This document shows positions 12,423 through 30,122 of a stretch of DNA of 64,000 bases, in pieces. The DNA comes from Alienimonas californiensis. GTDB taxonomy: Bacteria > Planctomycetota > Planctomycetia > Planctomycetales > Planctomycetaceae. The number at the start of each line of letters is the position of its first letter. Positions within the stretch are counted from its first letter, which is position 1. The stretch is taken from positions 4,657,823 to 4,721,822 of the forward strand of contig NZ_CP036265.1 in assembly GCF_007743815.1 (NCBI RefSeq), written 5' to 3'. Under the pieces are notes generated by a model, which saw only the letters and a list, made by a program, of their open reading frames with translations, did not search any database and was not told the DNA's origin. The position numbers and the translations under genes were made by a program.

Positions 12423-12467
12423 CGAGTCAGGATGACAGATTCAAACCTGCGACCTCTTGACCCCCAG
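12423..12467 (-). repeat. tRNA-Pro 3'-half remnant, candidate distal attachment site of the island
   Basis: On the minus strand this block corresponds to the tRNA-Pro(GGG) gene at 30049-30122 from the anticodon loop (CTGGGGG) to the 3' end. Positions 12444-12467 are identical over 24 bp to 30067-30090. The remaining part has one deletion and three substitutions. Similarity stops abruptly in the anticodon loop, so no complete tRNA can form. The same-orientation partial copy, with a terminator behind it, is the classic sign of a tyrosine-recombinase island inserted in a tRNA gene. The att assignment is inference. Confidence 0.85.
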
Positions 12468-12480
12468 GGAGGCCAAAAAG

Positions 12481-12797
12481 GCACCCGCCAGAATCGCTCG
12501 CGACTCTTGCGAAACAGCTATGGAACTTGAAAGTTAGGCTCTCTCAGTCCTCGTGTCCAGTCGCACCGGCGGACGTCCGATACAGTGCGGGCGTGTCAGC
12601 GGAGATCATTTTTATCAGTCTCTCCCGTCCCGGTTTCCCGCCCGTACGGCGACCAGCATGAATGGGGGCAACGGCGCCGCGAACAGCGTGGGCAGGGCAG
12701 GGGACGACATCGCCCCCGAATGGCCGGCGTCAGCTCGCTTCCACCGCGTTTTGTGAAAGGCCGCCGGAGGTTCGTCGCTCGATACCTGTCTACATGA
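12481..12797. other. Gene-free stretch inside the left island edge
   Basis: No conserved protein or RNA is seen between the tRNA remnant and the heme-domain fragment. Short open frames here have no recognisable motifs. Confidence 0.4.
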
Positions 12798-13148
12798 ATG
12801 ACCTTGATGCACACGATCGGTCCCGCCGGATCGCAGCGATCCAATCTCGATGACCTGCTGGGCCACGTCGTCGATCCCAGTGCCGTGGTCGGCAATGACA
12901 GCCGCTTATCGATCCTTGCGCTCGCCGACGGCCGCGTACTGACCGGCCTCGTTGTTTCCAGAGACGAACATTCCCTCGTGCTTAAGACCGCGACCGAACG
13001 CGTCACGTTGCCAGTGTAGGAGATCAACGAAATGATCGTGTCGTCTCAGTCCGCCATGCCGGACGGCCTGTTGCAGACGCTGGACGGCGAGCAGATCCGC
13101 GACCTCATTGCCTATTTACAAAGTCCCGTGCAGGTCCCGCTCGGCGAA
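12798..13148 (+). pseudogene. C-terminal fragment of a PVC-type heme-binding domain protein, with in-frame stop
   Basis: The translated frame matches the C-terminal part of planctomycete cytochrome-domain proteins: LDDLLGHVVDPSAVVG, then LADGRVLTGLVV, an in-frame TAG at 13017-13019, then (same frame) EINEMIVSSQSAMPDGLLQT and IRDLIAYLQSPVQVPL. The CxxCH heme site and everything upstream are missing; similarity begins about at 12805 (IGPAGSQ). Both the truncation and the stop indicate a dead remnant. The ATG codons at its left end are probably fortuitous. Confidence 0.8.
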
Positions 13149-13952
13149 CCACAAGATGGTCGGGAACCGCCAGACGGAGCGCCGGAAACCCCACGCGGCG
13201 CCGCGGCGGGCCGCGGAGCTGAAGGAGAGGGCGCTCGTCCTTGCGGCACTGCAGGCGGATGACGGACGCAGCGGCGAACTGTCGAAGGAAGGGCCGGCCT
13301 CGCCGGCCGGGGCACCGGGGTTGGAGGCGACCGTCCTGGCGCTGCGGGAGTGGGACCGATTGACAAACGTCGGCGGCAGCACGAGCGGGGGCTGGCGTTC
13401 GCTGCGGAGGAGCCACCGGGGCGGCGACCCGCACAGCGACGAGACCTGCCCGCTGCGGCAGGTCGCCCAGCTCCAGCTGCGGCGTCGGGCCTGCCGAGCG
13501 GACTTAAGCACGCGGTCGTCAGCGACTTCCATCTGAATTGATGACGCCCAGTACAGCAGTCTGGAGGCGACGATCCTGTCCCGCTTCCCGCTGACCGCGC
13601 CGTGAGATCTGGCCCCGAGCCGGACAGGGCGAGCGAACGCATCAAAGACCGCACGTCCCCTTCCTCAGCTCGCCTGAAAAGGCTGGCGGCGGACCGGTTC
13701 GGGTTTGGCAGGTCTCTCTTGAAAACGTCGCGGACGACCCTTTCTGCGGGGAGAAACGCGGCCGGCCGGCGGTCTCCGCGATCGACACGCCCAGCAGGCG
13801 CCGGGCGAGCGATCCATTCGTCCGCCGGTTTTCATTCGCTAGGCTCAATCCCGCAGGTTGCTTAAATCGCCGCTGGAGCCGACCGGCTTCGCAAACGCCG
13901 CCGGGGGGCGACGGCGAGATCGACGCGCGCCTCCTCGAGAATTCCGTCAGAT
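13149..13952. other. 800-base stretch without a supported gene
   Basis: Several GC-rich open frames exist on both strands, but none has recognisable family motifs. One short segment near 13512-13541 reads HAVVSDFHLN followed by a stop. This resembles the first strand and metal-binding DxH of LpxH-type metallophosphoesterases, but it is too short to annotate. The stretch is probably decayed island DNA. Confidence 0.35.
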
Positions 13953-28568: not shown

Positions 28569-29885
28569 TCAGCCCACCTCCCGCATCACCCGCTCGGCGG
28601 CGGCGAGGTCGCGTTCGGCGTAGATCTCGCCGGTCGCGATGTCGCTCTGGCCCAACACGGTGCGGGTCAACTCGATGCCGTACTTCGCCCGCAGCTGGGT
28701 GGCCCGCGTGTGGCGGAGCTGGTTCGGGGACCAGCGGCACGACTCCCGGCGCTCCTTGACCGCCGCGTTCACGGCGGAGCGTTCGGCGTTCGGCAACGCC
28801 TGGATCCCGGCGTGCTTGACCGCGAGGTCTAAGGGGAGGGGGACGGCGTTCTCAGCGGCGCGTTGCACGCACCGCCGGTCACTGGTCGTCGTGTACCGGT
28901 CGCCGGCCTAGCGGGCGGGGTTCTTCTTCCGATTGCTGCCGACGACCCACCCGCACGAGGCCGGGGTCATGCGGGCCGCAGTCGCCGCGGCCCGGCGAGC
29001 GGCTTCGGCTGGCTTCGGGCTGAAGCAGAAGGCGTCGGCCGGGCGATCGTCGAGGTAGGGGCCGAGGATCGCCTGGGCCTCCGTGCCGACGAAGACGGTG
29101 CGGGCCTTGCCGTGGTGCTGGGTCTTGTGCGAGGCGGGGCGGTAGGACCACACCTCCTTCGAACGGTCCACGTCGCGGGGGCGGAGCGAGCAGACCTCCC
29201 CGGGCCGCATCCCGGTGAGCAGCTGCAGCCGCACCATGTCCGCGACGATCGGCGGGAGGTGGGGCAGGGTGGCGTCCACGAGCCGCGGGTCGACTGGCTC
29301 CACCGGATCCGGCTCCCACGCTGGCGTGCGGCCCTGCTGCAGCCCCGTGACCGTGGCGAGGGCCTGGTAGACCTCCGGGCCGATCAGCTCCTCGGAGACC
29401 GCCCACTTGAACACCCGCTTCACCCGCTCGACCCGCTCGTTCACCCCCGGGCGGGAGAGCCCGTCGCGGACGAGCTGGTCCCGGTAGGCCTTCAGCTTCA
29501 GCGGACCGAACTCGGCGGCGGGGGTGGAGCCGTACAGCGAACGCAGCGTCCGCAGCGTGACCTTCAGCACGCCGATCTCGCTGGTGGGCTGCCCGTCCTT
29601 GACGTAATGGCCCTGAGCCCACTTCCAGTACGGCAGGATGACTTCCTCCACGGTCCGCCCCGGCGGGTCGCCGACGGCCGCGACGCCGGCGATCGTCGCG
29701 GGCGCCGGACGAACCTCTGCGGGAATCTCGCCGGAGCGGAGGTACTCCGCGACCAGCCGCCGGTACTTCTCGTCGGCGGCTGGGGTGCCGTACTTGCCGA
29801 GGTAGAACTGCCGGCCGTTCAGGTAGACGCGGGCCTGACCGGTCGGCTTGTGGAGGGTGAGCTTCGGGACGCGTGTGCGGGGCAT
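28569..29885 (-). pseudogene. Tyrosine recombinase (island integrase) with one in-frame stop
   Basis: The gene starts at the ATG at 29885 (MPRTRVPKLTLHKPTGQARV, the usual start of planctomycete integrases) and reads to a TAG at 28908-28910. The same frame then continues AGDRYTTTSDRR to a TGA at 28569-28571. The core-binding region includes VERVKRVFKWAVSEELIG. Catalytic motifs are split by the stop: TGMRPGEVCSL (Arg I) and the SHKTQHHGK lysine lie before it; NQLRHTRATQL (Arg II) and EIYAERD (Tyr) lie after it. The usual GHS is GQS. It lies 164 bp from the tRNA-Pro 3' end and points into the island. Without readthrough it cannot make an active enzyme. Confidence 0.9.
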
Positions 29886-30009
29886 CGGGCGGGATCCGGA
29901 AAGGCGGTCCGCCGAGTTTTTGGTAGTACTACCAAATCTCGGCGGTCGCTCCGGCCGCGCCCGGGAACCTCCCGGGGTACGCGTGAGATCGCGTTCGGCT
30001 CTGGCGGGG

Positions 30010-30046
30010 TAGACGAAAACACCTCGCCGCACGTTGCGGCGAGGTG
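30010..30046 (-). terminator. Terminator after tRNA-Pro
   Basis: A perfect 11-bp stem (30020-30030 with 30036-30046, loop ACGTT) is followed on the minus strand by the T-rich GTTTTCGTCT. It begins two bases past the tRNA 3' end. The stem sequence differs from the terminator at 12.4 kb, but the CGAAAACACC flank is the same. Confidence 0.8.
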
Positions 30047-30090
30047 ATTCGGGATGACAGGATTCGAACCTGCGACCTCTTGACCCCCAG
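30046..30090 (-). repeat. Candidate proximal attachment site (tRNA-Pro 3' half)
   Basis: The tRNA section from the anticodon loop to the 3' end is the intact partner of the remnant at 12423-12467, in direct orientation about 17.6 kb away. The 24-bp core 30067-30090 is identical in both. The crossover site in the anticodon loop to T-arm segment is inferred from where identity begins. Confidence 0.85.
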
Positions 30091-30122
30091 TCAAGCGCGC
30101 TACCAGGCTGCGCCACATCCCG
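30049..30122 (-). tRNA. tRNA-Pro (anticodon GGG)
   Basis: The minus strand folds as a full cloverleaf. The acceptor stem is CGGGATG/CATCCCG with discriminator A, the D-arm has GCGC AGCCTGGTA GCGC, and the anticodon stem is CTTGA/TCAAG with loop CTGGGGG (positions 34-36 GGG). The T-arm is GCAGG TTCGAAT CCTGT. CCA is not encoded. It lies 150 bp downstream of flhB on the same strand and is the integration target of the adjacent island; its 3' half is duplicated at 12.4 kb. Confidence 0.97.

Follow-up and report, generated by a model that had tools for sequence, protein, structure and literature searches.

At tRNA-Pro(GGG) of Alienimonas californiensis, a tyrosine-integrase element quite probably inserted ahead of an older one whose integrase was of the same family. 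In the history that we favour for the window (the whole 64,000-nucleotide stretch of DNA that was analysed, in whose numbering all positions are given), the tRNA 3′ half carried by the incoming element would have recombined with tRNA-Pro(GGG) across the anticodon loop. An intact tRNA would thereby have been restored beside the integrase, with the old 3′ half displaced to the opposite end of the element. The insertion point would have been in front of the older element, so that the fragment at 12.4 kb would serve as distal end of the younger element (17.6 kb) and at the same time as head of its predecessor, of which the leader would survive as a remnant and the integrase would be gone. We infer both the order of the two insertions and their catalysis by this integrase. 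The features on which this reading draws are collected in Table 1.

Table 1. Features of the tRNA-Pro(GGG) region, in order of window position
Feature	Coordinates	Strand	Basis
Remaining variable region left of the fragment	709..12330	.	non-syntenic with A. chondri
Fragment flank: terminator-like hairpin and probable decayed leader remnant of an older element	12331..12426	-	homology; missed by covariance model
tRNA-Pro 3′ fragment (att relic)	12427..12467	-	anticodon loop to 3′ end, one base deleted
Peptidase S51/cyanophycinase-like protein	13953..15641	-	homologue on A. chondri contig C328
Redoxin/AhpC-TSA domain protein	15738..18041	-	homologue on A. chondri contig C328
PVC-type heme-binding protein (DUF7133, HEAT, CxxCH)	18408..21410	-	homologue on A. 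chondri contig C135
484-aa protein, no family found	21410..22864	-	homologue on A. chondri contig C135
Isochorismatase-like hydrolase	23486..24337	+	homologue on A. chondri contig C305
Decayed IS4/5-type transposase, in pieces, ends approximate	26779..27558	+	DUF4096 E 2.5e-26 and DDE_Tnp_1 E 1.2e-5, on two pieces
WYL-domain regulator	27557..28447	-	Pfam WYL E 1.7e-16
Tyrosine integrase pseudogene	28569..29885	-	in-frame TAG 28908-28910; RHxxR box and nucleophile Tyr beyond TAG
Palindrome TTTGGTAGTACTACCAAA before integrase start	29919..29936	-	sequence
Integrase leader: nested inverted repeats P1, P2, P3	29950..29999	-	covariance model
Terminator-like hairpin with T run, between tRNA and leader	30013..30046	-	sequence
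Intact tRNA-Pro(GGG), attachment gene	30049..30122	-	anticodon loop 30084-30090; ARAGORN and Rfam

The tRNA gene, its fragment and the integrase

ARAGORN and Rfam both recover the intact tRNA-Pro that a sequence-only reading of this DNA had placed at 30 kb, and the tyrosine recombinase gene lies after it, as that reading had also stated. The fragment matches tRNA positions 33-71 with 94.9% identity over 39 bp (E 3.6e-10); the identity begins where the anticodon loop starts, at position 33, and no mismatch to the tRNA occurs in the first 24 bases, in agreement with the 24-bp core described before. The copy had been drawn from 12423 to 12467, which holds for its extent from anticodon loop to 3′ end and puts its start too low by 4 bp. 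In the sequence, a terminator-like hairpin and T run bear out the terminator proposed behind it. As predicted, ARAGORN calls one tRNA-Pro(GGG) at 30 kb and no tRNA at 12.4 kb. A genome search with the tRNA region (E ≤ 0.001) returned five places, namely tRNA-Pro(GGG), the fragment, tRNA-Pro(CGG), tRNA-Pro(TGG) and tRNA-Met; the only partial tRNA-Pro copy among them is the one at 12.4 kb, and the multiple equal fragments that would have spoken against an integration scar were not seen. Integration at the anticodon loop is further supported by five other pairs of the same family, in which, as in the window, identity starts at the first anticodon-loop base or two bases earlier (two of the pairs have the same sequence).

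The integrase has the orientation of tRNA-Pro, the intact tRNA abuts it, and a direct repeat of the tRNA 3′ part lies at the far end, all as in a genomic island at a tRNA gene. The catalytic recombinase is not intact, as the TAG precedes both the RHxxR box and the tyrosine; as the integrase is a pseudogene, the feature is classed here among the relics of tRNA-gene islands. A more decayed integrase copy occupies the same tRNA-Pro in Alienimonas chondri, and, given both broken genes, the element is taken to be old and dead and should now be unable to move by itself. The in-frame TAG does not appear in the sequence-only reading.

A conserved leader between tRNA and integrase

The nested repeats of the leader were modelled by covariance from 42 other leaders, chosen by eye from 57 as alignable or non-duplicate, with 15 left out. 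With filters off, the leader at 30.0 kb is the best match of this model in the window (17.9 bits, E 0.009; next 9.7 bits), and with default filters it gives no match. The model recovered 7 of the 15 left-out leaders, among them L137 and L166, which are near-duplicates of rows used. The palindrome is likewise a feature of the family, one with arms of at least 7 standing at that place in 47 of 56 leaders. The terminator-like hairpin is less general: in most other leaders the repeats begin no more than about 15 bases from the tRNA, which leaves no room for a terminator, and L175 and L224 also seem, by eye, to carry one.

All 14 pairs of a three-helix nested structure covary (14/14), a count that is flattering since the 42 rows were selected by eye, and for which the second alignment was fitted to the model's structure. 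L088 and L089 are the same loci as L099 and L111, hence not independent of the model, and some genomes of a later family search contain loci met before, L210 being L128. Such covariation would suit a structured RNA in a tRNA-integrase read-through transcript, controlling tRNA maturation or integrase translation, as would the fact that tRNA and integrase point the same way in the 57 counted loci, which mostly have no evident terminator between the two (by eye). We nevertheless regard the RNA reading as unlikely, because the wobble cells of the leader comprise 36 G-U and 29 A-C, unlike the tRNAs of the same loci (46 versus 3, a control biased by ARAGORN's preference for tRNAs with good stems), and because helix P3 is 99% paired with few wobbles. 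The near-equal G-U and A-C counts and the pairing of P3 point to inverted repeats that are recognised as double-stranded DNA. The wobble pattern hints at DNA sites rather than RNA, and the leader would be a double-stranded DNA region for integrase binding or control. A pseudoknot joining the 5′ AAGT to the P2 loop was rejected, since the outer A-U pairs show hardly any variation and the inner ones form in only 67% of cells. No earlier description of the leader was found in the literature searched, most subscription journals lying outside it; the island layout is known, and the leader appears to be new.

The outer flank of the fragment

When the outer flank of the 12.4-kb fragment was compared with the leaders of both Alienimonas species, its score was not equalled by any of 1000 shuffles, with the hairpin part included or removed, nor by any of 2750 other window stretches. 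Without the hairpin part, the score was reached by 2 of 2750 stretches for the window leader and by 0 of 2750 for the A. chondri leader. The leader claim at 12.33-12.42 kb rests on homology to two congeneric leaders, and the covariance model detected no leader at 12.3 kb in the window. Because this flank is homologous to a tRNA-integrase leader, the 12.4-kb end probably abuts an older copy, and the fragment is probably the displaced head of that copy. The region had been described as a discrete island with both ends visible, which is upheld for the tRNA/integrase end, the other end probably meeting an older copy and not the original chromosome.

Displaced copies are frequent in the family. Among integrase-family loci without an ARAGORN tRNA, 18 of 23 carry the leader, and in most of these a tRNA 3′ half stands immediately before it (by eye). 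In one locus (L109, an element of ∼9.8 kb with an intact integrase), the order by eye is tRNA, integrase, distal tRNA 3′ copy and a second leader-like sequence, the last of which was missed by the covariance model. Behind the distal tRNA copy of the window, no second integrase was seen next to the probable leader remnant. Neither the window, nor the 40 kb to its left, nor positions 1-18000 of A. chondri contig C342 yielded a third tRNA-Pro copy, and the older element is therefore drawn without a visible far end. The three flanks are about equally distant from one another (64/79, 64/76 and 75/89), so that the order of integration is not readable from the identities.

Boundaries, cargo and alternative histories

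On the right, the window is colinear with A. chondri from 29.7 to 56.5 kb; on the left, colinearity resumes at ∼0.7 kb and not at 12.3 kb, giving a variable region of ∼29 kb. An empty site joining the alcohol dehydrogenase side to flhB, which the sequence-only reading had expected in related strains, was not found: A. chondri, the only congener among the relatives searched, has the decayed integrase at the same tRNA, as well as a contig end there. It also shows no close homologue of the alcohol dehydrogenase on the 12.3-kb side (best match 27%, E 2e-18).

The cargo is of the non-phage kind proposed earlier, comprising a peptidase S51/cyanophycinase-like protein, a redoxin, a PVC-type heme-binding protein, an isochorismatase and a WYL regulator. 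No phage structural or packaging genes were recognised by Pfam in nine ORFs (13.9-30 kb) or by PHROGs in five of them; the integrase is the only phage-type match in these scans, the WYL protein matching one PHROG of unknown function. Relaxase, coupling protein and transfer genes of an ICE or IME were likewise absent from the nine ORFs (Pfam and NCBIfam). Foreign cargo by composition was rejected, the GC of 12-30 kb resembling its surroundings. In A. chondri, the blocks at 13.97-18.16, 18.40-22.92 and 23.47-24.32 kb lie on three other contigs, and the second of them adjoins there the homologue of the 8.76-11.08 kb gene, which in the window falls to the left of the proposed island. The cargo is not specific to the island.

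At fourfold sites, the difference to A. chondri is 0.409 (23 genes) and 0.377 (11 genes) in the core, where two or three of 34 rows look wrong-frame and, being kept, pull the core value down. It is 0.239 inside 12.4-28 kb (5 genes) and 0.236 at 4-11 kb (3 genes), the latter group omitting a fourth row (1.1-2.7 kb, 59% aa identity, 0.418, probably a paralogue) with which it becomes 0.267. The region genes are less diverged than the core (Mann-Whitney p 5e-4) in a comparison limited to genes detected by DNA similarity, a criterion biased towards similar genes. They would thus have been exchanged after the core split of the two Alienimonas.

In another history, which we consider doubtful, the integration is ancient, 0.7-30 kb gathers single genes and operons by other means, and integrase and fragment are bystanders. 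In its favour, each cargo block has its own surroundings in A. chondri, on separate contigs and amid genes that are dispersed across the G000 genome; both species have a dead integrase at tRNA-Pro, and the region has gene-poor stretches and transposase debris. Against it, the right-hand synteny break falls at the tRNA/integrase, and the region contains one tRNA 3′ copy. As to cargo, this history is compatible with two successive elements, and the probabilities of the two overlap. It is rather improbable that a single 17.6-kb element entered an empty tRNA-Pro, with fragment and flank as the original chromosome and, as a corollary, an attP that had acquired, in a close relative, the tRNA 3′ half together with the next ∼90 bp downstream of it: the single fragment in the genome, the exact layout, a terminator hairpin resembling that behind the A. 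chondri tRNA-Pro and the silence of the covariance model at the flank agree with it, but the shared flank extends past the terminator into the 5′ part of leader repeats that belong to the integrase family across the phylum, synteny is not resumed at 12.3 kb, and genes on both sides of the fragment have similarly low synonymous differences.

The integrase family and known systems

The integrase family is mostly planctomycetal, and its members usually stand 106-166 bp behind a tRNA, of at least 24 isoacceptors (the profile contains the window protein, whose own match is no test). Besides that of L109, an integrase with an open reading frame lies at G000:3404549. The best 80 loci have tRNAs of 21 isoacceptors, mostly with the conserved leader, and integrases 88% identical were found behind tRNA-Met and tRNA-Pro; the family appears to change its tRNA often. 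We tentatively suggest that the leader is a double-stranded attP arm or control module through which a single type of integrase could act at nearly any tRNA. The protein would read the leader and shared tRNA features, with the anticodon loop as an exchangeable overlap only, which, if true, would explain the 88% pair. A single cargo type as class label was rejected. Of the 57 family loci that extend at least 4 kb downstream, 9 have a DUF3987 homologue. From the 45 loci that extend at least 8 kb, 163 downstream ORFs were picked; a size cap removed 60 of them, DUF3987 ones included, and the remaining 103, from 30 loci, hit mixed families of replication, transfer, defence and one capsid. The island itself is of a known kind; its integrase family reaches further, making testable the old question of how integrases choose and switch their tRNA. 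A further caution follows for other islands, in which a distal tRNA 3′ copy may head another element and not mark the chromosome edge.

The intact tRNA by the integrase, the distal tRNA 3′ direct repeat and the anticodon-loop crossover are shared with islands and integrative elements of tyrosine integrases at tRNA genes, from which the present case differs in its dead integrase, a far end next to what is probably an older copy, cargo that a congener carries at other places and a conserved inverted-repeat leader at near-constant distance. In the parts of the account of actinobacterial AICEs available to us (PMC3218068), these elements use tRNA 3′ ends as sites, occur as tandem pairs in one tRNA, have tRNA remnants as att sites and related integrases in different tRNAs, and include one integrase gene with an internal stop codon. 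The 3′ sites, the remnants, the range of tRNAs and the stop-broken integrase recur in the window element or its family. The window element belongs to a different phylum, and the ORF scans of the window recognised neither replication nor transfer genes; those parts of the account do not mention a leader structure (PMC3218068). The int-alpA RNA (RF02996) is also a structured element near integrase genes. Here the leader lies between tRNA and integrase, with no Rfam match at gathering score (window and 16 loci scanned) and no credible one for a single leader at a permissive threshold; int-alpA itself gave one borderline match, in L152, 3′ of the integrase (35.9 against a cut-off of 35.8).

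The tRNA-Pro relic and its integrase

A relic of integration at the anticodon loop of tRNA-Pro(GGG), as the sequence-only reading had proposed, is real on the strength of the tRNA call, the start of the fragment at the loop and a genome search. The fragment matches tRNA positions 33–71 at 94.9% identity over 39 bp (E 3.6e-10); the match begins with the anticodon loop's first base, and its first 24 bases show no difference. Chance and a spread-out repeat are excluded as its origin, because the tRNA region used as query against the single-contig genome (5,475,215 bp) gave only five places at E ≤ 0.001: the tRNA gene, its fragment, tRNA-Pro(CGG), tRNA-Pro(TGG) and one tRNA-Met. 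The ends read as those of a single 17.6-kb island were well placed. Gene order breaks near 0.7 kb, and the relic probably sits on an older copy. It is old and dead and the island of an ordinary kind; the part worth following is the constant leader of its integrase family, a set of nested inverted repeats between tRNA and integrase gene.

Features of the tRNA-Pro(GGG) region (window coordinates)
Feature	Position	Strand	Remark
Intact tRNA-Pro(GGG)	30049-30122	-	one call each by ARAGORN and Rfam
tRNA-Pro 3' fragment	12427-12467	-	no tRNA call
Leader	29950-29999	-	covariance model, filters off: best hit, 17.9 bits, E 0.009; next hit 9.7 bits
Integrase reading frame	29885 (begin) to 28569 (end)	-	one in-frame TAG at 28908-28910

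The integrase frame aligns at full length, across the TAG, to the open integrases of two other loci, L088 and L089 (47% identity over 439 and 433 columns, respectively). Both of its parts match Pfam Phage_integrase weakly, each below the cut-off, and the RHxxR box and the nucleophile tyrosine both lie past the TAG. A broken IS4/5-type transposase in several frames occupies 26779–27558, within the proposed island. The same genome holds two further family members, an open one at 3404549 behind what by eye appears to be a tRNA-Arg 3' fragment, and a more distant one at 2857871 behind an intact tRNA-Leu(CAG).

Spread and tRNA use of the integrase family

Genome contigs, when scanned, yielded 193 integrase relatives, and the best 80 were taken further; by title, two of these belong to another phylum (a Nitrospira and a Nealsonbacteria bin), six are named only 'bacterium' and the rest are planctomycetal. 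ARAGORN places a same-direction tRNA just upstream of the integrase in 57 of these best 80, with 21 isoacceptors represented and a gap of 106–166 bp in 56 loci and 314 bp in one. In the taxonomic family to which the window belongs, members occur in 16 of 25 genomes, with 41 matches in all; an intact tRNA adjoins the integrase in 25 of 30 loci fetched, which extends the isoacceptors to Leu(CAG), Gln(CTG) and Gln(TTG). A quick-search tree of 59 integrases, which leaves 20 of its 56 inner branches open, has 41 changes of isoacceptor (shuffled mean 47.6, minimum 44) and 29 of amino acid (shuffled mean 39.8, minimum 34); two integrases 87.7% identical stand behind tRNA-Pro(TGG) and tRNA-Met. Searches of 72,556 plasmid records (E limit 1e-30) and of 50,697 phage records (E limit 1e-20) returned nothing related to the L088 integrase; IMG/VR gave 21 relatives, four of them with a leader at E below 0.01.

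The leader

Alignment of 42 of the 57 leaders, picked by eye, gives three nested helices, P1, P2 and P3, of 4, 5 and 5 pairs, which fit 85.2% of cells as against 71.1% after shuffling (0 of 500 as high); the fit falls to 29–47% when helix partners are slid by 1–3 columns, and all 14 pairs show changes on both sides. Automatic folding recovers P3 and one inner pair and not the rest. Ahead of the integrase, 47 of 56 leaders carry a perfect palindrome whose arms measure 7 or more, compared with 2.5% of shuffles. The covariance model built from the alignment finds all 42 leaders used, 7 of the 15 left out (two being near-duplicates of rows used; 8 missed) and the leader at tRNA-Pro of Alienimonas chondri (30.7 bits). 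It also finds the leader in 18 of the 23 loci where ARAGORN calls no tRNA, and thus in 67 of the best 80 (42 + 7 + 18), with 13 lacking it by this model. In the window, the default covariance search gave no leader match. No Rfam family matches the leader of the window or of the 16 loci scanned, and a single leader searched at a permissive threshold gave no credible match; a borderline int-alpA RNA match lies just 3' of a family integrase at L152:5433-5501.

Scanned for without regard to integrases, the leader matches in 38 of 294 genomes of the phylum. In 30 fetched from 50 listed matches, some at loci already known from the contig scan, an intact tRNA lies directly upstream in 25 and a family integrase within 250 bp downstream in 19; among the other 11, two keep an integrase-like remnant (one weak) and three lie near a contig end. 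At L215, L220, L224, L225 and L235, probably relics, the leader stands immediately after a tRNA, and the neighbourhood showed no family integrase.

RNA pairing tolerates G-U and not A-C. Across 79 distinct leaders we count 36 G-U and 29 A-C cells, and in the 41 outside the model 15 and 10, misaligned cells adding mismatches of every kind; for 77 tRNAs of these loci, counted over their anticodon and acceptor stems, the numbers are 46 and 3, ARAGORN preferring tRNAs with good stems. As the two counts in leaders are near equal, where RNA would tolerate G-U alone, the leader behaves like inverted repeats in double-stranded DNA, an indication rather than proof.

A probable older element outside the fragment

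Beyond the far end of an ordinary island, plain chromosome is expected. The 92 bp outside the fragment instead score 44 against the window leader and 54 against that of A. chondri (shuffled means 17 and 16), and 30 and 32 without the hairpin part, with 0 of 1000 shuffles as high in each case. None of 2750 other 92-base window stretches, both strands, reaches the score; without the hairpin part, two do so against the window leader and none against the A. chondri leader. The inner side scores 15, a background level, and the covariance model with filters off has no match at 12.3 kb in the window scan. Since the outer flank is leader-like where an ordinary island would show plain chromosome, the head of an older element is probably the better explanation for it.

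Most of the 18 leader-bearing loci without an ARAGORN tRNA show, by eye, a tRNA 3' half directly before the leader, the layout that a newer insertion should leave when it displaces a copy. Contig WYBU01000015 carries leader and integrase twice, in the same direction and about 88 kb apart (L134, L138), once behind an intact tRNA-Gly(CCC) and once behind a tRNA-Gly 3' half. In 3 of the 57 loci with an upstream tRNA (L109, L131 and L160), 42 bases of the tRNA end recur exactly downstream, within the sequence fetched. In L109 the distal copy is followed by a second leader-like sequence, to which the covariance model gives no score, and in L131, a tyrosine-integrase element with tRNA-Pro(GGG), the flank after 12310 resembles by eye that of a serine-recombinase element at the same tRNA in another genome, G021; tRNA-Pro(GGG) thus seems to be used by both tyrosine and serine recombinases. 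The G021 gene (L049:12241-13790; Resolvase and Recombinase domains) encodes a large serine recombinase and runs antisense into tRNA-Pro(GGG), its last residues being encoded by the tRNA complement. DUF3987 proteins occur at L109:12368-14548 and L131:5166-8039, in elements of roughly 10 kb, each bordered by exact copies of the tRNA end, and have homologues in 9 of 57 family loci that extend 4 kb or more downstream.

Comparison with Alienimonas chondri

A. chondri LzC2 is the sole congener among the 40 relatives searched. Its tRNA-Pro(GGG) adjoins flhB, as in the window, and behind it lies an integrase remnant that contains stops and deletions. The right side (29.7–56.5 kb) is colinear with three of its contigs (C89, C17 and C157), and on the left C342 is colinear over 11.6 kb before the window and stops at position 708. 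Between 708 and 29.7 kb, the stronger matches are single pieces of 0.8 to 4.5 kb (81–87%) on other contigs; weaker ones of 65–69% are taken for paralogues. On contig C135, the 18.40–22.92 kb block adjoins a homologue of the 8.76–11.08 kb gene, which lies outside the proposed island; genes next to the two on C135 map far away in the genome that holds the window. The variable region also contains a peptide chain release factor 3 gene (3239–4891), where A. chondri gives only a 118-base match at 69%.

For genes found by DNA similarity, the fourfold-site difference to A. chondri is 0.409 in the right core (23 genes) and 0.377 in the left core (11 genes), values lowered by two or three of the 34 core rows that look like wrong frames and were kept. 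It is 0.239 in five genes between fragment and tRNA and 0.236 in three non-syntenic genes at 4–11 kb (0.267 for this left group if the omitted row at 1.1–2.7 kb, probably a paralogue at 59% amino-acid identity and 0.418, is included). Given this lower difference (core versus region, p 5e-4), genes on either side of the fragment were probably exchanged after the two Alienimonas lineages split.

Among 13 further flhB loci, three (G013, G021 and G022) have tRNA-Pro(GGG) beside flhB, with unlike sequence after it in each, and the tRNA scan found no tRNA within about 1.5 kb in the other 10. Away from the tRNA-Pro copy, A. chondri holds two loose C-terminal remnants of family integrases, on C312 (L085:4163-4390) and C101 (L092:7274-7369), 70–75% identical to the window integrase. 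A palindromic repeat of ~36 bp at L094:1697-1752 has dozens of matches on both strands of A. chondri contigs.
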